The notes under the pieces are model-generated. The model was not told where the DNA came from and searched no databases. It saw only the letters and a list, made by a program, of their open reading frames with translations. A stretch of 64,000 nucleotides of DNA, from assembly GCF_000165505.1 (NCBI RefSeq), contig NC_014633.1:682001-746000 (forward strand). The letters run 5' to 3'. Below, in pieces: positions 14,054-55,564 of this stretch (its first letter is position 1; each line of letters begins with the position of its first letter). Origin of the DNA: Ilyobacter polytropus DSM 2926 (lineage in GTDB: Bacteria; Fusobacteriota; Fusobacteriia; Fusobacteriales; Fusobacteriaceae). A program made the position numbers and the translations under genes.

Positions 14054-15469
14054 TTATCTAGGCAACAGTTCTTTTCCAGAGATTCCCGGATTGGTCATGT
14101 TAAAAGGGTTCAATATTACATCTATAGCTTCCTGGCTTATAAGACCTTTTCTCACGAGAAGTGTTGCCACAGGGATCCCTTTCTTTAGAGACTCTTTTGC
14201 TATATCCGAAGCATTTTTGTATCCAATATGCGGATTCAGTGCCGTAAGAATCCCAATACTGTCATCTACCATCTTCTTGCATCTTGCTTCATTTGCCGTT
14301 ATTCCCTCTATACAATTTTCAACCAGTGTATCCACTCCATTTTTCAAAATTTCGATGGACTGAAACAAATTAAAGAAAAGAACAGGTTCAAATACATTGA
14401 GTTCAAGCTGTCCAGCTTCTGCCGCCTTTGTTATAGTGAGATCATTTCCAAACACTTGAAAAGATACCTGATTCATTACTTCTAAAATTACAGGATTTAC
14501 TTTTCCAGGCATTATTGAAGATCCTGGCTGCATCTGGGGAAGGTTTATCTCATTAAAACCTGCAGTAGGTCCTGAAGCCATGAGTCTTAAATCATTTACC
14601 ATTTTAGAAAGATTCACTGCACATATTTTTAGTGCTGAGGACATCCAGACAAATACATCCAAATTTCTAGTTCCGTCTACAAGATCTTCTGACTGGATAA
14701 GCTCTATTCCGCTAACATCTGATAAAAATCTAACAACACTTTTAACATAGCTCACATCTGCATTCAGACCGGTACCTACCGCTGTAGCCCCCATATTCAC
14801 ATTTTGAAAATCTTCTAGAACTGATTTAATTCTGTTTATATCCCTTTTTATAGGTTGTGCATAAGCCCTAAACTCCTGACCTAATCTAATTGGTATAGCA
14901 TCTTGAAGATGGGTCCTTCCCATTTTTATAACCCCATCAAACTCTTTTGATTTTTCCATAAGAGCATCATATAGCTTTTCAAGGCTTACAAGCATCTTTC
15001 TACTCATTCTTAGAATTGTCAACTTTCCAGTTGTAGGTATTACATCATTAGTAGACTGGCAATAATTTACATGATCATTGGGGTGTACTAGATCATAGAC
15101 ACCCTTTTCTCCACCTAAAATCTCATTAGCCCTGTTTGCAATTACTTCATTCATGTTCATATTCATGCTGGTTCCGGCTCCGCCTTGTATAACATCAGTT
15201 ATAAACTGATCATGCATCTTCCCAGCAATGATTTCGTCTCCAGCCATTATTATTGCATCAGAAACTTTCTTTGAAATGACACCTGCTTCGCAATTGGCCA
15301 TTGCAGCAGCCTTCTTTACCATCGCCATGGAATTCATAAAAAGCGGAGAAACTTTGTAGCCAGTTATATGAAAATTATTTTTCCCTCTTAGAGTCTGCGC
15401 TCCATAATATGCCTCTGCCGGTACTTGAATTCCCCCAATTGAATCAAATTCAGTTCTAAACTTGCTCAT
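14054..15469 (-). CDS. aspA: Aspartate ammonia-lyase
   Basis: 471 residues. Converts L-aspartate to fumarate plus ammonia in the cytoplasm. The fumarase/aspartase signature G-S-S-I-M-P-G-K-V-N-P lies at about 317-327. The N-terminus shows D-S-I-G-G-I-Q-V-P-A-E-A-Y-Y-G-A-Q-T, more aspartase- than fumarase-like, and the C-terminus (L-N-P-H-I-G-Y) is also typical. The start at 15469 follows GGGGGGAT; an upstream in-frame Met at 15511 lacks a site. The gene lies directly upstream of the Hdr-Flx-Frd operon on the same strand, separated by a terminator, so it probably supplies fumarate as electron acceptor. Fumarase C is the alternative. Confidence 0.88.
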   Translation of the reverse strand: MSKFRTEFDSIGGIQVPAEAYYGAQTLRGKNNFHITGYKVSPLFMNSMAMVKKAAAMANCEAGVISKKVSDAIIMAGDEIIAGKMHDQFITDVIQGGAGTSMNMNMNEVIANRANEILGGEKGVYDLVHPNDHVNYCQSTNDVIPTTGKLTILRMSRKMLVSLEKLYDALMEKSKEFDGVIKMGRTHLQDAIPIRLGQEFRAYAQPIKRDINRIKSVLEDFQNVNMGATAVGTGLNADVSYVKSVVRFLSDVSGIELIQSEDLVDGTRNLDVFVWMSSALKICAVNLSKMVNDLRLMASGPTAGFNEINLPQMQPGSSIMPGKVNPVILEVMNQVSFQVFGNDLTITKAAEAGQLELNVFEPVLFFNLFQSIEILKNGVDTLVENCIEGITANEARCKKMVDDSIGILTALNPHIGYKNASDIAKESLKKGIPVATLLVRKGLISQEAIDVILNPFNMTNPGISGKELLPR

Positions 15470-15974
15470 TTTAATCCCCCCAAAAATTAAATTACGCTGA
15501 TCATAAAACAATAATTTACCACTATGCCCGTCTTTTAGATTGAATATATAATTTTAAAAATAATTAAAAACTTTTTGTAATATAACACTTTATTTACTTT
15601 TCTCTCTTTACAGGCCAATATTACCAGCTAAATTTTCCTAAGTCAACAGTTTTTGAATGTCTTTCCTTCAAAAACTTGTTTTATGATTTTTTTTCTTCAC
15701 AAACTTTTTATTTAAATTTCACTTTCATTTGATCTGTTTGTTGTTCTCTTAATAGTATTTTAATTTTTATATTCTAAATCTTGAGACAGAAAATTACAAT
15801 GTATGTCAGCCCTAGATTTATTGTGTTTCAGCACAAAGAAATAAAAATACATTTATCTATTCATAATATTACTATTTTTTTAATACAACTGTTTTTAATA
15901 ATTAGGCAAGAGATCCTTAATATATTGGTTTTATCCTAAAGGGTGGGTTATTTTTAAATAAATAAACTTCTGAT
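15470..15974. other. Intergenic region upstream of aspA
   Basis: About 500 bp, strongly AT-rich, separating the divergent aspA and the small CxxC gene. It should hold the aspA promoter. Apart from the palindrome at 15975-15988 I see no gene or clear site. Confidence 0.4.
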
Positions 15975-15988
15975 TGTGCTATAGCACA
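15975..15988. promoter_or_regulatory. 14-bp perfect palindrome upstream of CxxC microprotein gene
   Basis: TGTGCTATAGCACA, a perfect inverted repeat 91 bp before the ATG of the 31-residue CxxC protein. The identical 14 bases occur at 49230-49243 upstream of its paralogue. This looks like a dimeric regulator's operator (Crp/Fnr-like half-sites in size); the regulator is not known. Confidence 0.65.
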
Positions 15989-16078
15989 TTTTTTTTCAGG
16001 TTTACGCCTATTGTATTTAAACCAAAAAAAACTAAACTATCTCATATCAGACAAATTAAAAAATTAGGGGGCTTAAAA

Positions 16079-16174
16079 ATGTGTAAAAAATGTGAATCTA
16101 AAGGATTGGTAACAAAATGTTCTGCATGTATAGTTATGTTTAAAAAAATGGAAAAGTTAGTTAATTCAAATTAA
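16079..16174 (+). CDS. CxxC-CxxC microprotein (31 residues)
   Basis: The protein begins MCKKCESKGLVTKCSACIVM and ends in a short basic/hydrophobic tail. It has two C-x-x-C pairs at residues 2/5 and 14/17, a spacing suited to binding one zinc or iron ion or to thiol redox. The ATG at 16079 follows AGGGGG; a longer in-frame reading from 15974 would run through the palindrome and lacks a ribosome site. A paralogue of 52 residues at 48875-49033 shares the L-V-T-x-C-S-A-C-I-V-x-F-K-K-M core, which argues strongly that both are real. Function unknown; I do not recognise the family. Confidence 0.78.
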   Translation: MCKKCESKGLVTKCSACIVMFKKMEKLVNSN

Positions 16175-16736: not shown

Positions 16737-17627
16737 TCAACCTAACACCAATTTTTTCTGTATTTTTTCAAACTCAACAGGGGAGACATTTCCTAAGAAA
16801 CTGTGTCTCCTCTCTTTATTATAAAATTCTATGTAATCAAATACCATTGCCTTCATATACCTTTTAGTTACTAAACCTTCTACATAAATCATCTCTTTCT
16901 TCAAAGAAGCATGAAAGGATTCTATTACTGCATTATCATAACAGTTCCCACGTCTACTCATAGATTGGATTAATCCTAGCTTCTTTACAAGGTTAGAGTA
17001 CTCCCTACTCGAATATTGCGATCCTTGATCACTATGAATTATCAGTTCTTCCTCTGGTTCCTCCAGTAAAAATGACCTTGTTAAAGTATCTATTACTAAC
17101 TCACTAGTCATGCGCTTACCTATATCGTAGGCGATAATCCTTCTAGAAAAAAGATCCATAATTGTGCTTAAATATAGCCAACCTTCGCTTGTCCAAATAT
17201 ATGTGATATCTGTAACCCAGACCTCATTTTTTCTACCTACTTTGAATTTTCTTTTTACAATATTTCCTGTGATATTTTCTCTTTTACTCTTTTCATTTCC
17301 TGTTTTAAACTTCTTGGTAGAATTAACTGATATATCATTTTCTTTCATTATTCTATTTATTCGTCTTTCGCTTGTTATTATGCCATATTCATCTTTGAGC
17401 TCAACCTTTAGTCTAGGGGCTCCATAGCTCCTCTTATGTCTGTTCTTTCTGACCTCTAGAATACTATCTAGAATCCCTTGATCCTTTTTCTTTCTCTCAG
17501 TAGTTTTGTTATTCTGAAACTTATTAAAACCACTTCGAGAGACTTCTAGGGCTCTACATATCTGAGATATAGAATGAACATTTCTGTGTATTTCAACGAA
17601 GATAAAGAGTTCCCTCTTAGTTATCTT
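16737..17627 (-). CDS. IS3-family transposase OrfB (made by -1 frameshift)
   Basis: DDE integrase-core transposase. It is entered by slippage on the A7 run at 17626-17632, where OrfA ends. An in-frame ATG at 17348 would give only the last 203 residues. Upstream of it, the frame is open back to the slippery site and encodes the usual C-R-A-L-E-V-S-R-S-G-F and R-S-Y-G-A-P-R-L segments. The catalytic acids are in T-D-I-T-Y, H-S-D-Q-G-S-Q-Y and A-V-I-E-S-F-H. No stop interrupts it, so the fused OrfAB enzyme should be functional. Confidence 0.88.
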   Translation of the reverse strand, partial: KITKRELFIFVEIHRNVHSISQICRALEVSRSGFNKFQNNKTTERKKKDQGILDSILEVRKNRHKRSYGAPRLKVELKDEYGIITSERRINRIMKENDISVNSTKKFKTGNEKSKRENITGNIVKRKFKVGRKNEVWVTDITYIWTSEGWLYLSTIMDLFSRRIIAYDIGKRMTSELVIDTLTRSFLLEEPEEELIIHSDQGSQYSSREYSNLVKKLGLIQSMSRRGNCYDNAVIESFHASLKKEMIYVEGLVTKRYMKAMVFDYIEFYNKERRHSFLGNVSPVEFEKIQKKLVLG

Positions 17628-17914
17628 TTTTTCCTTGAGAATATGGCTGTAGCCTTTTTTAAGATCTCTATATCCTCTTCTTTTTCCTTAAGTAGATTTT
17701 TCAACCTGATAATTTCTTTGTCTTGAGCGCTTAACTCCATGTCCTTCTTAGGACCTCCAAAGTATTTCTTTTCCCAGGCAGCAACAGTATTAGTGGTAAT
17801 ACCGTATTCATTTGATAGCTCTACCTTTGTTTTTATTTTAAGGAAAGAAAGCTCAGCGATTTGCTTCTGTTTCTCCTCTGAAAATCTTGCATATCTTCTT
17901 TTTTCTTCCATCAT
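17621..17914 (-). CDS. IS3-family transposase OrfA
   Basis: 97 residues: a helix-turn-helix (T-K-V-E-L-S-N-E-Y-G-I ... V-A-A-W-E-K-K-Y) that binds the IS ends, then a leucine-zipper-like coiled coil (I-I-R-L-K-N-L-L-K-E-K-E-E-D). The ATG at 17914 is chosen because AGGAG lies five bases before it; the GTG at 17920 overlaps that site. It ends at TAA 17621-17623 just past the A7 slippery run. Confidence 0.88.
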   Translation of the reverse strand: MMEEKRRYARFSEEKQKQIAELSFLKIKTKVELSNEYGITTNTVAAWEKKYFGGPKKDMELSAQDKEIIRLKNLLKEKEEDIEILKKATAIFSRKKR

Positions 17915-18547
17915 AGCCACTCCTAAATATGTTTATTTTTTATTATATATTTTTGAGTGCTAAACTGTCTACTAAACCATCATAACACCAAGGTTGCGTC
18001 CACTGCCGAGGGACAGTTTAAATATCCTACAGGTAGAGAAGCACTGGAAAGATTAAAATATGATCCTGTAATTCTTAGAACACTTCCAGAGTCAGTAACA
18101 AATTCCTACTGCGGTACTGGAAATCCATTTTCCATGGAAACTATAGGGGCTGAAGAGATACTTTTAGATTTTGGGTGTGGAGCAGGTGTTGATGCCATCT
18201 TTGCTGCCAAAATGACCAAGAATACAGGCAGAATTATAGGTCTAGATATAGTTTCAGAGATGATTAAAAAAGCCGAAATAAATAAAAAAACTCTAGGTAT
18301 TACAAACCTAGAGTTAACCTTATCTAATGGAACTATATTAGAGTTTGCAGATGAATATTTCAACACTATTATCTCCAACAGTGTGATCAATCTTGTTCCT
18401 GACAAAGAGACAATTCTTAAGGAGTTTTATAGATGTCTGAAACCAGGGGGAAAGCTCCTATTGGTAGATCAAGTTTTTAAAGGAACGAAGATCAAAGAAC
18501 ATCCTGCTAGAGTTAAAAGCTGGTTCCAATGAGAAGGTGGAGCTGTA

Positions 18548-47498: not shown

Positions 47499-48650
47499 AT
47501 GATAGTCAAATTAAGGGAATTGTATGGTTCAGTTAAAGATCAAGAAATAAAGCTTATTGCCGGAAAAAAAGGCCTAGACAATATTGTAAGATGGGTACAT
47601 ATGGTCGAAAATATTGAAATATCTGTTTTTTTAGACGGTCAGGAGATTGCCTTTACCACAGGTATCGGTCTAGAAAAGAAAAGTGATCTGCTTGATCTGG
47701 TTAAACACGCTTACAATAACCGGTGTAGTGGTATGGTTATTAACATCGGTCCTTTTATCGATGAGATTTCAGATGAGATCATAGCCTTTGCCAACGAGCA
47801 TAATTTTCCTATTTTTGAAGTCCCATGGCATGTACATGTAGCCGAAATAATGCGTATCTTCTGCTATAACATAACAATATCTGATAGGATCAATACTGAA
47901 TTATCCGGTGCTTTCAAAAACTCCATCTTTTTCCAAAACCAAGAAGAATTGTATGTACCACAGCTCGAAAGGTACGACTTCAATGCCAATTGGTCATACT
48001 GCCTTGCTATTATGGAACCTGTAAACATGAATACTGATAAAAGATCTAAAATATTAAAAACTATTGAAAATACTGTAAGTTCTATAACCCAAAAATCCTT
48101 TGTTTTCGAATTAGAGGGTAAATTTGTCTTGGTCTTTGCAGAGTATACAGAGGAAGAAATAAGGGAAATCATTAAAATTACAAAGGATAAATGTTCACCT
48201 TTGTTGAAAGGCAACGAAGAGATTTATTGTGGAATAGGGAAGAGTACCAGAAATATCAAGTGTATTGCAAAAAGTTATAAAAGAGCATCAGATGTATTAA
48301 AACTTCAAAAGAGCAGCGATAATAATGATATAATTATATACCGTGAGTTAGGTTTGTATAAACTTCTCCTTTCCCTCGAGGATGAAGAGGTTGTACAGGA
48401 ATATTACCAGGAGACACTAGACCCCCTTGTAAAACACGACCAGTTAAATAACACAGATTATGTGGAAGTACTAGATACCTACCTCAAAAACAACGGAAGT
48501 CTCAAAGGAGTGGCTGCGGAACTTTTTTATCACCGAAACACAATTACATATAAATTAAATAAAATCCAAGAGATACTTTCTTGTGATCTGTCAGAGCTTA
48601 ATACAAAGCTTGCCTACAGTATCGCCCTTATGTTGAAAGAGATTATCTAA
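47499..48650 (+). CDS. PucR-family transcriptional regulator (copy 1)
   Basis: 383 residues. N-terminal PucR sensing domain (R-W-V-H-M-V-E-N, T-G-I-G-L, F-P-I-F-E-V-P-W), a central GGDEF-like CdaR region, and a C-terminal helix-turn-helix with F-Y-H-R-N-T-I-T-Y-K-L-N-K-I. These regulators control purine, GABA or amine catabolism. It flanks the permease-aminotransferase-dehydrogenase cluster, with a close paralogue at 54392 on the other side, so control of that cluster is likely (inference). GGAG precedes the ATG. Confidence 0.88.
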   Translation: MIVKLRELYGSVKDQEIKLIAGKKGLDNIVRWVHMVENIEISVFLDGQEIAFTTGIGLEKKSDLLDLVKHAYNNRCSGMVINIGPFIDEISDEIIAFANEHNFPIFEVPWHVHVAEIMRIFCYNITISDRINTELSGAFKNSIFFQNQEELYVPQLERYDFNANWSYCLAIMEPVNMNTDKRSKILKTIENTVSSITQKSFVFELEGKFVLVFAEYTEEEIREIIKITKDKCSPLLKGNEEIYCGIGKSTRNIKCIAKSYKRASDVLKLQKSSDNNDIIIYRELGLYKLLLSLEDEEVVQEYYQETLDPLVKHDQLNNTDYVEVLDTYLKNNGSLKGVAAELFYHRNTITYKLNKIQEILSCDLSELNTKLAYSIALMLKEII

Positions 48651-48874: not shown

Positions 48875-49033
48875 CTATGAAACCCTTTTCTGAGATACAT
48901 TTATAACTTTTTGTTCTGGAAGTTTTTGTGGCTCAGGCATCTCTTTAGATAGCTCTTTGGCCATTTTTTTAAATTTTACAATACAAGCTGAACAATTTGT
49001 AACTAATCTCTCTTCAATACATCTTTTGCACAT
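48875..49033 (-). CDS. CxxC-CxxC microprotein (52 residues), paralogue of 16079-16174
   Basis: Begins MCKRCIEERLVTNCSACIVK, then F-K-K-M and a proline-containing tail (E-P-Q-K-L-P-E-Q-K-V). The C-x-x-C pairs at 2/5 and 14/17 match the 31-residue protein exactly in spacing. A perfect GGAGGTG lies ten bases before ATG 49033. The TGTGCTATAGCACA palindrome lies about 200 bp upstream. Metal or thiol chemistry is likely, but the function is unknown. Confidence 0.8.
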   Translation of the reverse strand: MCKRCIEERLVTNCSACIVKFKKMAKELSKEMPEPQKLPEQKVINVSQKRVS

Positions 49034-49458
49034 TATCGACACCTCCAAATGGCTTAAGCCATTTATATAAAATTATAAAATTAATATTGGCCATAGACTC
49101 TGAGAAATACTTCCCATTACACAAAAACAGTTCCCTTTACATATTTAAAAATTAATTTCTTTCTTTGTCTTATGATTAATTTTAGAGCTTTTTCACTTCA
49201 ATTACAATGTGTGACGACATTAAAAAATATGTGCTATAGCACAAAATTTGCCTCTTAAAAAAAGAAAAAACATCAAAGAGTCGCCTCTGATATTTTTATT
49301 ATATGAATAACCACGCTTTCCATATACTCTGCAAATGTTACTTCAGGAATGCAAACTTATTAAGTTTAAAACTTTTTTTCAAATTTTATAATGTTTACCG
49401 ACACGAAATTGAATGTGCTGCAGAACAAATATTTATATAACATCATGCACAATAAAAA
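49034..49458. other. Intergenic region with the shared palindrome
   Basis: About 425 bases upstream of the CxxC gene. It holds TGTGCTATAGCACA (49230-49243) and an imperfect hairpin near 49272-49293. No gene is seen. Confidence 0.45.
49230..49243. promoter_or_regulatory. 14-bp perfect palindrome upstream of CxxC paralogue
   Basis: TGTGCTATAGCACA, identical to 15975-15988. The flanking DNA of the two copies otherwise differs, so the conserved core probably is a protein-binding site. Confidence 0.65.
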
Positions 49459-49543: not shown

Positions 49544-50662
49544 TTAATATAAATCTTTATATATAGTCATTATCTGTTTTTTTGATAAGTCTGCATAATT
49601 ATTTGATAAAAGTCTCTGTTGTTTTTCAATTACACTTTCAGTAAATTCTAAAATTTCTTTTTCTTCCATTCCAAAGAAATTAAGCTTTTTCTTTTCCCAT
49701 ATAGAATTAAAGAGTTGATCTAATGCTGCATAAACATCGGATTCTTTATCTAGTTCCAATGTTGAAATTACCAAGTCATTGAATTTTTTTATTTTACCCT
49801 CTGGAGCTATCTCAGTATAAGCTTTAAAAACCGGTGTAAAAAATTCATAGTTACACTCTCCATGTGCCACATGGTATTTTCCCCCAAGCGGATATGATAA
49901 GGCGTGTACCGGGCCTACACCTGTATTTCCAAAAGCTATTCCTGCATAATTACTCCCTATAAGGAAATCCTCTATGATTTCAGAATAACAGTCTTTCCCA
50001 TTTTCAGCTATTACCTTGTACCCCTTTAGGATAATCTCTATTGCATTTTGAGCAAAAATATCTGTATAGGGGTTTGACCCAGGTGAAACAAAGGACTCTG
50101 CCGCATGTACAAGGGCATCTAAAGTGCTGAATGCAAAGAACTTATAAGGAATATTTCGTAGAAGTTCAGGAATGAGAACTGCATAATCAGGTAGGAACTC
50201 TTCTATTCCTATACCCATTTTTGTCCCTTTTGATTTTATTTCTGCTACTGAATATGACGTGACCTCACTCCCTGTACCACAGGTTGTAGGGATGGCAATT
50301 AATTCTTTTATTTTATTGAACTCAATTTTTCTTTCAAACACATCTAGAGTTTCACTTACGTTTTCAATAACAAGGAATTTGGATATATCCATTACTGCTC
50401 CGCCTCCGATTGCGATCACCCTGTCAAAATCGTGTTGAGAAGCTTCTGCAAGTACTTTATCTATGATCTCATCTGATGGTTCTCCGTCTCCATATTTTTT
50501 GGGAGATATAAATATGCTTTTCAGATCAAGTTTTTTTATAAATTTGTTATAAATCGAGTTATTTACTACTATTAGATCTTTGTCACTGACACCGAATTCT
50601 AAAACAAACTCACTAAAGTTATCAAATTTATGAATTTCAGGTTGTAATTTAAATAATTTCAT
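49544..50662 (-). CDS. Iron-containing alcohol dehydrogenase
   Basis: 372 residues. NAD(P)-binding G-G-G-A-V-M-D-I-S-K, and the Fe-coordinating histidines in L-V-H-A-A-E-S-F and H-A-L-S-Y-P-L-G-G-K-Y-H-V-A-H-G. Group III alcohol dehydrogenases include succinate-semialdehyde reductase (4-hydroxybutyrate dehydrogenase). Following a GABA-type aminotransferase and a permease, that is an attractive role: it would reduce the aldehyde formed by transamination. Other aldehydes cannot be excluded. Confidence 0.82.
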   Translation of the reverse strand: MKLFKLQPEIHKFDNFSEFVLEFGVSDKDLIVVNNSIYNKFIKKLDLKSIFISPKKYGDGEPSDEIIDKVLAEASQHDFDRVIAIGGGAVMDISKFLVIENVSETLDVFERKIEFNKIKELIAIPTTCGTGSEVTSYSVAEIKSKGTKMGIGIEEFLPDYAVLIPELLRNIPYKFFAFSTLDALVHAAESFVSPGSNPYTDIFAQNAIEIILKGYKVIAENGKDCYSEIIEDFLIGSNYAGIAFGNTGVGPVHALSYPLGGKYHVAHGECNYEFFTPVFKAYTEIAPEGKIKKFNDLVISTLELDKESDVYAALDQLFNSIWEKKKLNFFGMEEKEILEFTESVIEKQQRLLSNNYADLSKKQIMTIYKDLY

Positions 50663-50692
50663 AATCTGCTGCTCCTTATTTATAAAATAATA

Positions 50693-50737
50693 ACTATCGA
50701 GATAATGTATACTAAATTACGCTATTATCCCGATAGT
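50693..50737 (-). promoter_or_regulatory. Intercistronic hairpin between aminotransferase and dehydrogenase
   Basis: ACTATCGAGATAAT / ATTATCCCGATAGT pairs 13 of 14 positions around a 17-base loop. Followed by an A/U-rich tail without a clean U-run on the minus strand; could be a partial terminator or processing site. Confidence 0.5.
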
Positions 50738-50776
50738 TTTGGATTTTAATTATATTGTATAGTATTCAGTATAAAC

Positions 50777-52120
50777 TTAACTTAAAGCTTTTTCAAGTGA
50801 TTTCTCAAGAACATCCAGACCATATTCCAACTGCTCATCAGTCATTACCAAAGGTGGAAGGAATCTGAGGACGTTCCCATAAATTCCTGCACTTATGAAT
50901 ATTACTCCCTCTTGAAGGCTTTCTTTTGTTATTTTCCCTATAATTTCCTTATTAGGTTCTTTTGATTCAGGATCTGTTATGAACTCCACAGCACACATTG
51001 CTCCAAGCCCTCTTATATCACCGATAACAGGATATTTTTTTTGCATTTCAGAAAGTCTTGATTTAATCTTTTCACCGATAGCATTAGCTCTTTCTGTTAA
51101 TTTTTCTTTTTCTATTTTTTCAAGGACTTTGATAGCAGCAGCACAGGCAACAGGGTTACCGCTAAAAGTCCCACCTATAGATCCCACAATTGGATTTTCC
51201 ATTATTTCCTCTTTTCCGACTACTGCGGCTAAAGGCATTCCGGCAGCTAGTGATTTGGACATTGTCATCATATCAGGCTCTATATCAAACTGCTCAGATG
51301 CAAAGAGAGTACCTGTTCTGGCAAAACCTGCCTGTATTTCGTCAACTATGAAAAGAATATTATTATCATTGCATATCTTTTGAAGTCTTTGTAAATATCC
51401 CTTTGGAGGCACTATGAATCCCCCTTCACCCTGGACAGGTTCCACTACTAAAGCGGCTATCATATCAGCCGAAAGTTCACCTTTAAGCAAGTCTTCTAAT
51501 TTTTGAGCACACTCTAAATTGCAACCAGGATGTTTTTTTCCAAATTGACATCTGTAACAATAAGGTGACGGAATTTTATGTGTGTCACTGTTATATGGCG
51601 CAAACCCATATTTATAAGGCTTTACCTTACTTGTAAGTGTCATAGACATATAAGTTCTTCCGTGGAAGGCGTTTTCCAAGGATAAAATCATCGGTTTACC
51701 AGTATATTTTCTTGCAATTTTAACTGCATTTTCTACAGCCTCGGTACCACTGTTTATAAGTAAAGCTTTTTTATCGTAATCCCCAGGAGTCGCTGCAACC
51801 AGTTTTTCGGCTAAATTAATATAGGGTTCATACATGGCAACATTAAAAGATGTGTGTATATTTTTTTCAACCTGTGATTTTATTGTTTCTACTATTTCCT
51901 CGTCACAGTGTCCGACATTTTGTACCCCTATACCTGCTGCAAAATCAACAAATACATTGCCGTCAATATCCTTTATAAGAGCACCTTTGGCCTCATCTAC
52001 AAATACCTCTGTAGAATAACTGACACCTCTAGCAACATATTTGAGTCTTTTTTCCAAAAGTTCCTTAGACTTTGGACCTGGAATTGCCGTTGTAATTTTT
52101 GCATTTTTTTCTAAAATCAT
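50777..52120 (-). CDS. gabT: Class III aminotransferase, 4-aminobutyrate aminotransferase-like
   Basis: 447 residues. PLP motifs N-S-G-T-E-A-V-E-N-A, F-H-G-R-T-Y-M-S-M, F-I-V-D-E-I-Q-A-G-F-A-R-T-G and the lysine in T-M-S-K-S-L-A-A-G-M-P. A cysteine-bearing P-Y-C-Y-R-C-Q-F-G insert occurs in many GabT proteins. Predicted to transaminate GABA or another omega-amino acid. ATG 52120 follows GGAGGT; the in-frame ATG at 52135 does not. It lies between the APC permease and alcohol dehydrogenase genes, same strand. Confidence 0.83.
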   Translation of the reverse strand: MILEKNAKITTAIPGPKSKELLEKRLKYVARGVSYSTEVFVDEAKGALIKDIDGNVFVDFAAGIGVQNVGHCDEEIVETIKSQVEKNIHTSFNVAMYEPYINLAEKLVAATPGDYDKKALLINSGTEAVENAVKIARKYTGKPMILSLENAFHGRTYMSMTLTSKVKPYKYGFAPYNSDTHKIPSPYCYRCQFGKKHPGCNLECAQKLEDLLKGELSADMIAALVVEPVQGEGGFIVPPKGYLQRLQKICNDNNILFIVDEIQAGFARTGTLFASEQFDIEPDMMTMSKSLAAGMPLAAVVGKEEIMENPIVGSIGGTFSGNPVACAAAIKVLEKIEKEKLTERANAIGEKIKSRLSEMQKKYPVIGDIRGLGAMCAVEFITDPESKEPNKEIIGKITKESLQEGVIFISAGIYGNVLRFLPPLVMTDEQLEYGLDVLEKSLEKALS

Positions 52121-52204
52121 GATTGGTACCTCCAATATATGTTTAAATTTTTATATCCTATAGTTTTTCTTTTTATTTTAAAGAATAAACGCTTTATTCT
52201 CCAT

Positions 52205-53599
52205 TTATCCTAGAGCCTCTTCCTCTGCATGCTTTCCGAATTCAACATATGACATTTTTGACCATGTATAAAATACAGCACCTAGAACAAACCACCCAGT
52301 TACAATAGCCCATTCATAAGACACAAGTGCAGAAGGAGCTCCCGGAAGATAAAGGAATATACATAATCCGCTCAATAGAACAGCTATTGAACCTACTAAA
52401 ACACCTTTTCTAACCTTGTAAGGTCTAGGCATATCAGGCTCTTTATATCTTAGGACTATAAATGATATTGATACTATAAGGTAAGATATCACTATGGTAA
52501 ATCCGCCTGCATCAACAAGCCAAACAAGCATTTTTCTCCCTAAAAGAGGAGCCAGTGTGGATAATATACCGATTAAAAGTACAGCATTTACAGGTGTTTT
52601 GTATTTTGGATGCAGTTTCCCTAGGAATTCAGGAAGCATTTTTGAATCAGCCATAGAGTATATAGCTCTGCTTCCGCCTACAAAGAATGAGTTCCAGCTT
52701 GTTATTATTCCTCCGATTCCGGCTATAACCATTATCTTAGATGCTAATGGACTGTCAAAGAATACAGCTTTCATTGCATCGGCAGTTGCAAGCTTAGAAG
52801 CTGCTAGCGCACTGCTGTCCATAGCAAGGGATACTCCATAAATTATCATTACATACCATATAACAGCCATAACAACTGAAAGTACTAATATTTGACCGAT
52901 CTTTTTAAATGGAAGATTTATCTCTTCTGCAGCCTGAGGGATAACATCAAATCCTACATACATAAAAGGTGTCATAACAGCTACTGCAAGAACCCCTTTG
53001 TTTCCGTCGCTGAAAAGTGTCGTGATATTGGCAGAATCACCGTTGACAACTGCTCCCCCGAAAAAGCTCAAGCCTACCGCCCCTATAATAAGAGTAAGTA
53101 CACCTTGCAAAAATGCAGCAGGTTTAACTCCGAAATAATTAATAACTGTTATTGCAATAGAGCTTATCATACCCACAAGTACCCAGGTAAAGTAAACGTC
53201 ATACCCTGCTACCGTATACATCTTTCCTTGTATATAGCCAGGCACCAGATATTCCAAAACAGTGGGAAAAGCCACAGCCTCAAAAGCCACTACTGACACA
53301 TATCCCAATATGATTGCCCATGTACATATAAAAGAAGCATTTGTTCCCAAAGCTCTCAGACTAAATACGTGTTCACCTCCGCATTTAGGCATAGCAGAAG
53401 TTAGCTCTGCATAAGTTAGTCCTACAAATAAAACCATAATTCCACCCATTATAAAGGCTATTATTGCTCCTAGGGTACCGGCAGTTTCTATCCAGCTACC
53501 TGCCATAACTACCCATCCCCAACCTATCATCGCACCAAAGGCAAGAGCCAATACATCTTTTTTTGATAATACCCTGTCAAAAGATTCCTGTTTCGTCAT
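52205..53599 (-). CDS. APC-superfamily amino acid permease
   Basis: 464 residues, about 12 hydrophobic segments. The first contains G-A-M-I-G-W-G-W-V-V-M-A-G-S-W, the substrate-binding helix-1 break of the APC fold. Y-A-E-L-T-S-A-M-P-K-C-G-G-E is the conserved cytoplasmic loop. It likely imports the amine or amino acid handled by the adjacent aminotransferase. It is the first gene behind two tandem copies of the attenuator RNA and has GGGGG before its ATG. Confidence 0.87.
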   Translation of the reverse strand: MTKQESFDRVLSKKDVLALAFGAMIGWGWVVMAGSWIETAGTLGAIIAFIMGGIMVLFVGLTYAELTSAMPKCGGEHVFSLRALGTNASFICTWAIILGYVSVVAFEAVAFPTVLEYLVPGYIQGKMYTVAGYDVYFTWVLVGMISSIAITVINYFGVKPAAFLQGVLTLIIGAVGLSFFGGAVVNGDSANITTLFSDGNKGVLAVAVMTPFMYVGFDVIPQAAEEINLPFKKIGQILVLSVVMAVIWYVMIIYGVSLAMDSSALAASKLATADAMKAVFFDSPLASKIMVIAGIGGIITSWNSFFVGGSRAIYSMADSKMLPEFLGKLHPKYKTPVNAVLLIGILSTLAPLLGRKMLVWLVDAGGFTIVISYLIVSISFIVLRYKEPDMPRPYKVRKGVLVGSIAVLLSGLCIFLYLPGAPSALVSYEWAIVTGWFVLGAVFYTWSKMSYVEFGKHAEEEALG

Positions 53600-53930: not shown

Positions 53931-54391
53931 AATGAAAATCATTCTATTTAATGTCATTATATAGCCAGGTTTATATCTTTTCAGGGCATAAAAGAAAATC
54001 TCTTTTTTCTGATAAGATTTAACCTGCTTTTTATTATCCGTAAAAAGTCCAGTGAGAGATTTTTATTTTCTCTTGGTGAGAAATTTTTTAATCAGCTCTC
54101 AAATTTGCTATAATTAATTGTAATTTTTTTTTAAATGAATTACAATGGATTACTATCCGAAAAATTTTGTGCTGGAGTTGAAAATAATATTTCTAAACCT
54201 TTTAATTTCACGACTAATATAGACTTATATGGAAAATCCATTGTGGTAAAAACACTTGGGTTCAGTTTTGTATTTTAATATCGTTGTAGAAAAAATTGAC
54301 AAATGAATTATATAGAGATAATATTATTAATCAATGTAATTTTAGATTCTATCAAAGTGAAATATCAAATTATAGGTAGTGAGGTAAAAAA
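53931..54391. other. Intergenic region between permease leader and PucR-2
   Basis: About 460 AT-rich bases. Contains a TATAAT (minus, 53956-53961) for the permease transcript; the PucR-2 promoter must lie near its right end. No gene seen. Confidence 0.45.
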
Positions 54392-55564
54392 ATGGCTATG
54401 ACATTAAGAGAATTATATGAATCTACCAATAAAAGAGATATAAAATTAATCGCTGGTAAAAACGGTTTAGACAATGTGGTAAGATGGGCACATATGATTG
54501 AGGGCAAAGAGATATCAACTTACTTGGAAGGACAAGAACTTTCTTTTGTTACTGGTATCGCTTTGGGCAAGGACGAAAGTTTATTTGAACTAGTTAAGCA
54601 TACTTATTATAATCAAGCTAGTGGTATGGTTATAAATATAGGACCTTATATCGAAGGTATCTCAGAAGAAATTTTACAGTTTTGTGACGAGAACGACTTT
54701 CCTCTCTTCCAAATTCCATGGCATATTTACATGGCTAATTTCATAAAAGATTTTTGTTATCAGATTACAATATCAGACAGGATTAATATAGAGTTACTGT
54801 CTGCAATTAAAAATGCTATATTTTTCCCTGATCAAGAAAATTTATATAAACCTCAATTGGAAATACACAATTTTAGTGCCAACTGGCCATACTGTATTGC
54901 AATTATAGAGATCTTGGAAAACTCTACCGGTGAAATAATTGGTGATGAAAAGAGAGCTAAGTTATTAAAAAATATAGAAAATATCCTTATCTACTCTTAT
55001 AAGAGAACCTTTATATTTGAATTAAAAGGCAGATTTGTTTTGGTATTTGCTGAATATAGTGAAGATGAGATAAGAAATATTGTTCACGAAATAAAAAGAA
55101 AGTGCAGGGAAATTTTAAAGAAGAAAAATAAAATGTATTTTTGTATCGGAGAAACTTCTAAAAATATTGACGATATTTCAAAAAGCTACCACCAGGCAAT
55201 AAGTATATTAAAACTGCAAAAGAAAAGAGAAAATAGTGATGAAATTACTGCCTATAGTGAACTAGGCCTATATAAATTACTTTTATCTATGGAAAACAAA
55301 GAGGCTATGAGTAATTACTACCAAGAAACCTTAGAACCTTTAGCCGAATATGATAAAATTAATGGAACAGACTATATGATAGTATTAGATACTTATTTAA
55401 AAAATAATTGCAGCGTTAAAGAGGTCGCTGCACAACTCTTCTATCATAGAAATTCAATTAATTATAAATTATCAAAAATACAGGAGATCCTATCTTGTGA
55501 TCTGTCTCAGCTTAACACAAGACTTGTTTATAGTATAGCCTTGATGCTTCGAGAAATTATATAA
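54392..55564 (+). CDS. PucR-family transcriptional regulator (copy 2)
   Basis: 390 residues, collinear with the protein at 47499 and highly similar throughout (K-L-I-A-G-K, R-W-A-H-M-I-E, F-P-L-F-Q-I-P-W-H, and Y-H-R-N-S-I-N-Y-K-L-S-K-I at the C-terminal helix-turn-helix). It is divergent from the permease operon, the classic position for its activator. GTGAGG is a modest ribosome site. The two copies suggest duplication around the cluster with separate inducers, or shared control. Confidence 0.88.
   Translation: MAMTLRELYESTNKRDIKLIAGKNGLDNVVRWAHMIEGKEISTYLEGQELSFVTGIALGKDESLFELVKHTYYNQASGMVINIGPYIEGISEEILQFCDENDFPLFQIPWHIYMANFIKDFCYQITISDRINIELLSAIKNAIFFPDQENLYKPQLEIHNFSANWPYCIAIIEILENSTGEIIGDEKRAKLLKNIENILIYSYKRTFIFELKGRFVLVFAEYSEDEIRNIVHEIKRKCREILKKKNKMYFCIGETSKNIDDISKSYHQAISILKLQKKRENSDEITAYSELGLYKLLLSMENKEAMSNYYQETLEPLAEYDKINGTDYMIVLDTYLKNNCSVKEVAAQLFYHRNSINYKLSKIQEILSCDLSQLNTRLVYSIALMLREII

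Follow-up and report, generated by a model that had tools for sequence, protein, structure and literature searches.

Two cysteine-paired microproteins of Ilyobacter polytropus and their putative place in a nitrogen regulon of Fusobacteriaceae

Ilyobacter polytropus is an anaerobic bacterium from marine mud. The stretch of its DNA that was analysed, hereafter the window, covers 64,000 nucleotides of chromosome II of strain DSM 2926 (G000:C2:682001-746000, where G000 is this genome of 3,132,314 bases). Within the window, an earlier note had picked out two very short open reading frames with paired CxxC motifs, which it took to have been missed by ordinary gene calling. The genome paper reports gene calling with Prodigal 1.4 and GenePRIMP (PMC3035301). 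Are these frames genes at all, how are they related to each other, and which part of the metabolism do they serve? We address these questions through homologues, promoters and gene neighbourhoods in related genomes.

Two short genes of one family

The two frames, of 31 and 52 residues and about 33 kb apart, have in common C-x2-C-x8-C-x2-C and LVTxCSACIVxFKKM when translated, just as the earlier note described, and the strong ribosome sites that it saw are present on both. The features are as follows.

16066..16071, plus strand: Shine-Dalgarno sequence of gene 1, AGGGGG, 7 nt before the ATG
16079..16174, plus strand: microprotein gene 1, 31 aa, MCKKCESKGLVTKCSACIVMFKKMEKLVNSN, CxxC-x8-CxxC (translation, orthologues in two congeners, purifying selection)
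48875..49033, minus strand: microprotein gene 2, 52 aa, MCKRCIEERLVTNCSACIVKFKKMAKELSKEMPEPQKLPEQKVINVSQKRVS, CxxC-x8-CxxC with a fast-evolving tail (translation, orthologues, codon pattern)
49041..49064, minus strand: inverted repeat AAATGGCTTAAGCCATTT, AAATGGC-N4-GCCATTT at 49047-49064, then the Shine-Dalgarno sequence of gene 2, GGAGGT, 7 nt before the ATG

Searched at the protein level with the 52-residue protein, the whole I. polytropus genome returned the protein itself (E=2e-29) and its 31-residue paralogue (E=5e-6); the next match had E=0.14, and no third credible member of the family was found. Among 61 genomes of the family Fusobacteriaceae, both genes have orthologues in both congeners, G041 and G042, with those of gene 2 being 78-79% identical to it. 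Two metagenome-assembled genomes from two other genera, G043 and G044, carry one copy each. This gives eight genes in five genomes and three genera, all with the full MC..C-x8-CSACI.xFKKM core, although the G044 member is divergent (profile match E=1.3e-6). Twelve positions are invariant in all eight members, namely M1, C2, C5, C14, S15, A16, C17, I18, F21, K22, K23 and M24. A phylum-wide profile search of Fusobacteriota found nothing outside Fusobacteriaceae, and a single degenerate peptide pattern run against a genome collection reaching beyond the phylum returned only the same two Fusobacteriaceae loci.

Over codons 1-26 of gene 2, I. polytropus differs from G041 by eight synonymous and no non-synonymous changes, and from G042 by seven synonymous and two non-synonymous changes. 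The C-terminal tail of gene 2 changes much faster than this 26-residue core. On the evidence of the orthologues and of this codon pattern, both frames are real, selected proteins with a 26-residue functional core, and chance open reading frames are ruled out. The earlier view that these are real, conserved short proteins is thus borne out by homologues in three Fusobacteriaceae genera. What does not hold is its description of the pair as independently conserved, because the copies are paralogous and also have a promoter element in common (see below). Sequence comparison makes genes 1 and 2 paralogues of one family rather than separate inventions, and since orthologues of each of the two are found separately in the congeners, the duplication is older than those species. 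A mobile or phage origin was considered and rejected: there were no relatives in viral contigs, nothing credible in plasmids and no significant PHROG match for either window protein (the best, E=0.003, came from the divergent G044 member only).

Some smaller features accompany the two genes. The Shine-Dalgarno sequence of gene 1 is kept as GGGGG in G041 and G043 and reads GGGAG in G042. The inverted repeat before the Shine-Dalgarno sequence of gene 2 folds as a hairpin with a stability not significantly above that of shuffled sequences; its stem is kept in three species (I. polytropus, G041 and G042), with the loop altered. At 16737-17920, an IS3-like transposase pair follows gene 1 at a distance of about 560 bp; the 3' side of gene 1 is therefore rearranged in I. 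polytropus relative to G041.

A promoter element common to the microproteins and nitrogen genes

Comparison of promoters brought out a composite element consisting of TTGTGC-N4-(G/A)CACA(A/T), the box ATTGTAA exactly 21 nt after CACA, and a -10-like hexamer 16-17 nt further on. The sequence TGTGCTATAGCACA occurs exactly twice in the whole I. polytropus genome, once upstream of each microprotein gene. Allowing at most one mismatch, the 3.13 Mb hold three sites, which belong to gene 1, gene 2 and aspartase; relatives hold six (G041), two (G042), three (G043) and two (G056), and a control with the reversed pattern gave two matches over 61 genomes. A position weight matrix (PWM) built from 16 sites scores the five sites of the window at 27-55, whereas eight simulated windows serving as a null reached at most 11.0; three of the five were in the training set, and the distal gene 2 site and the site of the GABA operon are independent finds.

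15974..16016, plus strand: element of the gene 1 promoter, TTGTGCTATAGCACAT, 21 nt, -35-like TTGTAT; -10-like TAAACT at 16033-16038; exact match, PWM 47.3
15794..15836, minus strand: element of the aspartase promoter, divergent from gene 1, TTGTGCTGAAACACAA...TTGTAA, -10-like TAGAAT; exact match, PWM 51.6; conserved in G041 (L026)
49202..49244, minus strand: proximal element of gene 2, the gdhA promoter in congeners, TTGTGCTATAGCACAT, 21 nt, TTGTAA; -10 TAAAAT at 49179-49184; exact match, PWM 54.9
49386..49428, minus strand: distal, degenerate tandem copy for gene 2, PWM 36.8; intact upstream of gdhA in G041 and G042
54140..54182, minus strand: degenerate element heading the GABA operon, PWM 27.2; left half degenerate, 21-nt spacing kept

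In the relatives, the element is also found at gene 1 of G041, at the operons of gdhA and gene 2 in G041 and G042, and at the operon of the microprotein and gdhA in G043. Gene 1 of G042 is without it, and the corresponding operon of G044 has no strict element, on a contig that ends about 110 bp upstream. Reckoned from the predicted -10 box, the centre of the palindrome lies near -65, a position that would suit an activator. We also considered an intrinsic terminator, which is ruled out by the rigid 21-nt phasing to the -35 and -10 boxes across genera. CRP, FNR, Rex and NtrC operators presumably do not apply either, as we take their half-sites or spacings to misfit the element. A separate palindrome, TGTGCATATGCACA at G000:C1:1705952-1705965, has the same half-site with a different centre, is without the 21-nt partner box and occurs once in each of the three congeners (also at G041:C3:1829803 and G042:C3:260412).

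The genes around the sites in the window are listed below.

14054..15469, minus strand: aspartate ammonia-lyase (aspA), divergent neighbour of gene 1; NF008909, 681.9 bits over a cut-off of 510; synteny kept in G041
47499..48650, plus strand: PucR-type regulator, convergent with gene 2; PF07905, PF13556 and PF17853 over cut-off
49544..53599, minus strand: operon of an amino-acid permease, GABA transaminase and Fe-alcohol dehydrogenase; transaminase TIGR00700, 551.5 bits over a cut-off of 506.65
54392..55564, plus strand: second PucR-type regulator, divergent from the GABA operon (domain match)

In I. polytropus the element would serve aspartase and both microproteins, and probably the GABA operon as well. 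The sites of G041 stand before gdhA (in tandem), aspA, gene 1, a taurine-type aminotransferase operon and a dimethylamine/pyrrolysine operon, the last of which encodes a substrate-binding protein, a corrinoid protein, a dimethylamine methyltransferase-like protein, tRNA-Pyl, PylBCD and PylS. In G056, the element precedes the genes for an ammonium transporter and PII (amtB-glnK). Nearly all of these element-bearing genes would handle the assimilation or release of amino nitrogen, and the membership of genes 1 and 2 in a putative ammonium/amine nitrogen regulon is well supported by their promoters.

Several of these loci hold further features of their own. The pyrrolysine system of G041 chromosome II is complete (L104:8164-14385; tRNA-Pyl, PylB, PylC, PylD and PylS) and lies downstream of the methyltransferase-like gene and the element. 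An exact element in G056 (L055:1100-1140, C176) is close to a convergent gene for a MocR/GntR-type aminotransferase-like regulator. A locus of G041 (L025:9408-15388) combines a taurine-like aminotransferase, an Fe-alcohol dehydrogenase, an ABC transporter and a TauE-like permease, and one of G042 (L028:231-5944) combines a glycyl-radical enzyme and its activase with a permease and an Fe-alcohol dehydrogenase; read from sequence only, both gene sets resemble a taurine/isethionate route in Fusobacteriaceae.

Since PucR-type genes adjoin elements in three genomes (I. polytropus, G041 and G056), a PucR-type protein is the best candidate for the regulator. In the draft genome of G043, which has three elements, no PucR or HTH_30 protein was detected. 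The microprotein would not be needed for the regulon to work, given that G056 has the element and is without the microprotein. To our knowledge, no global nitrogen regulon has been defined in Fusobacteriota, and a literature search for one found none. The element described here links ammonium transport and PII, glutamate dehydrogenase, aspartase and the use of GABA, taurine-type compounds and methylamines with one another and with candidate regulators.

Most known proteins of the PucR type activate the use of amino acids, GABA or purines, and for three of them the binding site is an inverted repeat (PMC7652997). The regulators in the window have PucR, GGDEF-like and HTH_30 domains, as do the known activators of this type (PucR, PutR and AdeR of B. 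subtilis and GabR of C. glutamicum; PMC7652997). They differ from those systems in the element itself: TTGTGC-N4-GCACAA with its 21-nt phasing to the -35 box is described from sequence alone, with PucR as the putative binder.

Linkage to one glutamate dehydrogenase lineage

A gene for a 449-residue NADP-glutamate dehydrogenase (gdhA2) precedes gene 2 in G041 and G042, with about 110-120 bp between the two. The order is reversed in G043 and G044, where the microprotein is found immediately upstream of this gdhA gene. The linked enzyme matches NF006929 with 690 bits over a cut-off of 536. In a maximum-likelihood tree of 20 glutamate dehydrogenases of the family, the four microprotein-linked enzymes form one clade (support 100/98), and the motif is absent from the 2.7-4.7 kb fetched around the other 16 loci. 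This link to one NADP-glutamate dehydrogenase clade, and the rigid element common to both microprotein genes and aspartase, are new here.

The genome of I. polytropus has only the other, chromosomal NADP-glutamate dehydrogenase. Upstream of gene 2, we find instead the following junction.

49137..49145, minus strand: junction at which gdhA2 (449 codons in the congeners) is missing; the sequences on either side of gdhA in G041 and G042 align here without a break, 72-85% identity

The alignment marks this as a clean loss of gdhA2 from between its tandem promoter and gene 2. Because the gdhA promoter region and the spacer between gdhA and gene 2 are joined without a gdhA frame, the linked enzyme was lost and the microprotein kept.

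This loss bears on the first explanation to be weighed, that the microprotein is a dedicated small subunit or inhibitor of GdhA2 that tunes the glutamate dehydrogenase oligomer to ammonium, much as small proteins bind glutamine synthetase. The linkage speaks for it, holding in four of the four linked genomes, in both gene orders and with a single enzyme clade. The I. polytropus copy would then now serve the remaining chromosomal enzyme or be a leftover. However, I. polytropus keeps both microproteins with a conserved core, gene 1 stands beside aspA and away from gdhA in two genomes, and the linked enzyme clade shows no excess of clade-specific residues and no surface signature. We therefore consider a subunit dedicated to GdhA2 doubtful. 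With gdhA2 gone and both microproteins still conserved, GdhA2 is unlikely to be their sole partner; this is moderate evidence, and its weight depends on the date of the loss.

A possible small regulator with four cysteines

Family databases place the microproteins nowhere. Pfam gave sub-threshold matches only; for GATA and other zinc-finger entries the best stood at 13.6 bits against a cut-off of 26.8, and to the second knuckle alone. NCBIfam had no match for the 52-residue protein, and nothing in the PDB was significant (best E=1.8). An AF2 model from four sequences has helices at residues 3-8 and 15-31, each beginning at a CxxC, with pLDDT values of 82, 77 and 70 over residues 1-10, 11-20 and 21-30; with a pTM of 0.28 from four sequences, the predicted fold is weak. 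With four cysteines where the two helices of the model begin, a tetrathiolate metal site would be possible, and the invariance of this four-cysteine core makes a metal-binding role plausible.

Haloarchaeal C(P)XCG zinc-finger micro-proteins (HVO_2753 and HVO_0758; PMC11241148, PMC10716476) and Brz (PMC2253796) are likewise shorter than 70 aa, with two cysteine pairs and a predicted single zinc site. Their C(P)XCG motif has no counterpart in the present family, whose pairs are CKxC (MCKKC or MCKRC) and CSAC-I, followed by an amphipathic FKKM helix; glycine follows the second cysteine in none of the eight members. The family is also bacterial, so far confined to Fusobacteriaceae, and no sequence relationship to those proteins was detected.

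Our preferred reading, to which we give a probability of about one half, is a lineage-specific, metal-binding regulatory microprotein of an amine/ammonium nitrogen regulon, a role drawn from linkage and the shared element. Both genes would be expressed from an activator-type promoter whose operator lies about 65 bp upstream of the predicted start and is rigidly phased to a sigma70-like -35 box. They would have this promoter in common with genes of ammonia and amine metabolism, and a PucR-type protein that senses the supply of nitrogen or amines is the most likely regulator. A single metal ion, most likely zinc, is probably bound by the four cysteines between two short helices, and the invariant CSACI.xFKKM helix may be presented as a protein-binding face. 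Produced once the regulon is switched on, the microprotein may then act as a small accessory regulator of nitrogen metabolism, either by binding an enzyme (NADP-glutamate dehydrogenase or aspartase) or by co-regulating a transcription factor. The selection on both genes, their link to one dehydrogenase clade and the common element with its distribution are shown by the sequences; that the proteins bind metal, which protein is the regulator, and that their role is regulatory and not one of storage or catalysis are points that we infer.

Small proteins in nitrogen control have an experimental precedent in the small inhibitor of ammonium transport of M. mazei (PMC10714827). Like it, and like the cyanobacterial glutamine-synthetase inactivating factors and M. 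mazei sP26, the present proteins are short, would be regulated together with nitrogen genes and would have their place in nitrogen assimilation. Those proteins have been proven experimentally to act on glutamine synthetase or Amt, whereas here the linked enzyme is an NADP-glutamate dehydrogenase, a candidate target picked out by gene linkage and common promoter elements. The likeness to them and to Brz is one of functional analogy, not of family membership. The glutamate dehydrogenase link and the shared promoter together suggest an undescribed small regulator of nitrogen metabolism. If it acts on glutamate dehydrogenase or a regulator, a protein of 31 residues would be a post-translational switch among the smallest known, and I. 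polytropus would be a natural experiment in which the switch has outlasted the linked enzyme. Only tentatively do we entertain the fuller claim of a new metal-binding microprotein family for post-translational control of NADP-glutamate dehydrogenase (or aspartase) in Fusobacteriota, within a new PucR-type nitrogen regulon with a rigid 44-bp element.

A different possibility, by analogy with haloarchaeal Brz, is a zinc-finger-like transcription co-regulator that works with a PucR-type activator at the shared promoters. Brz, a small zinc-finger protein whose gene lies immediately upstream of bop, is required for bop mRNA (PMC2253796). The present family matches that precedent as a basic, CxxC-paired microprotein encoded inside its would-be regulon, whose element also stands in the microprotein's promoter. 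We nevertheless think it unlikely, since G056 combines PucR and the element without a microprotein, and G043 has the element and the microprotein with no PucR detected.

The earlier note had proposed metal or thiol handling. The metal-binding half of that proposal is plausible from the four-cysteine core, but the context points to a putative nitrogen regulon linked to one lineage of NADP-glutamate dehydrogenase. Metal or thiol handling in the strict sense, as a zinc reserve, metallochaperone or redox peptide merely induced with the nitrogen genes, would account for four invariant cysteines within 16 residues, yet no metal transport, thiol or oxidative-stress gene immediately adjoins any copy. 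Moreover, the SA and FKKM residues are as invariant as the cysteines, which fits a binding face better than a metal store and leaves this explanation improbable. Finally, a leader peptide or upstream open reading frame whose translation rather than product controls gdhA, as its place directly upstream of gdhA in G043 and G044 might suggest, is very remote and in effect ruled out by gene order, the microprotein being downstream of gdhA in G041 and G042 and alone in I. polytropus, and by selection on the amino-acid sequence with synonymous sites left free.
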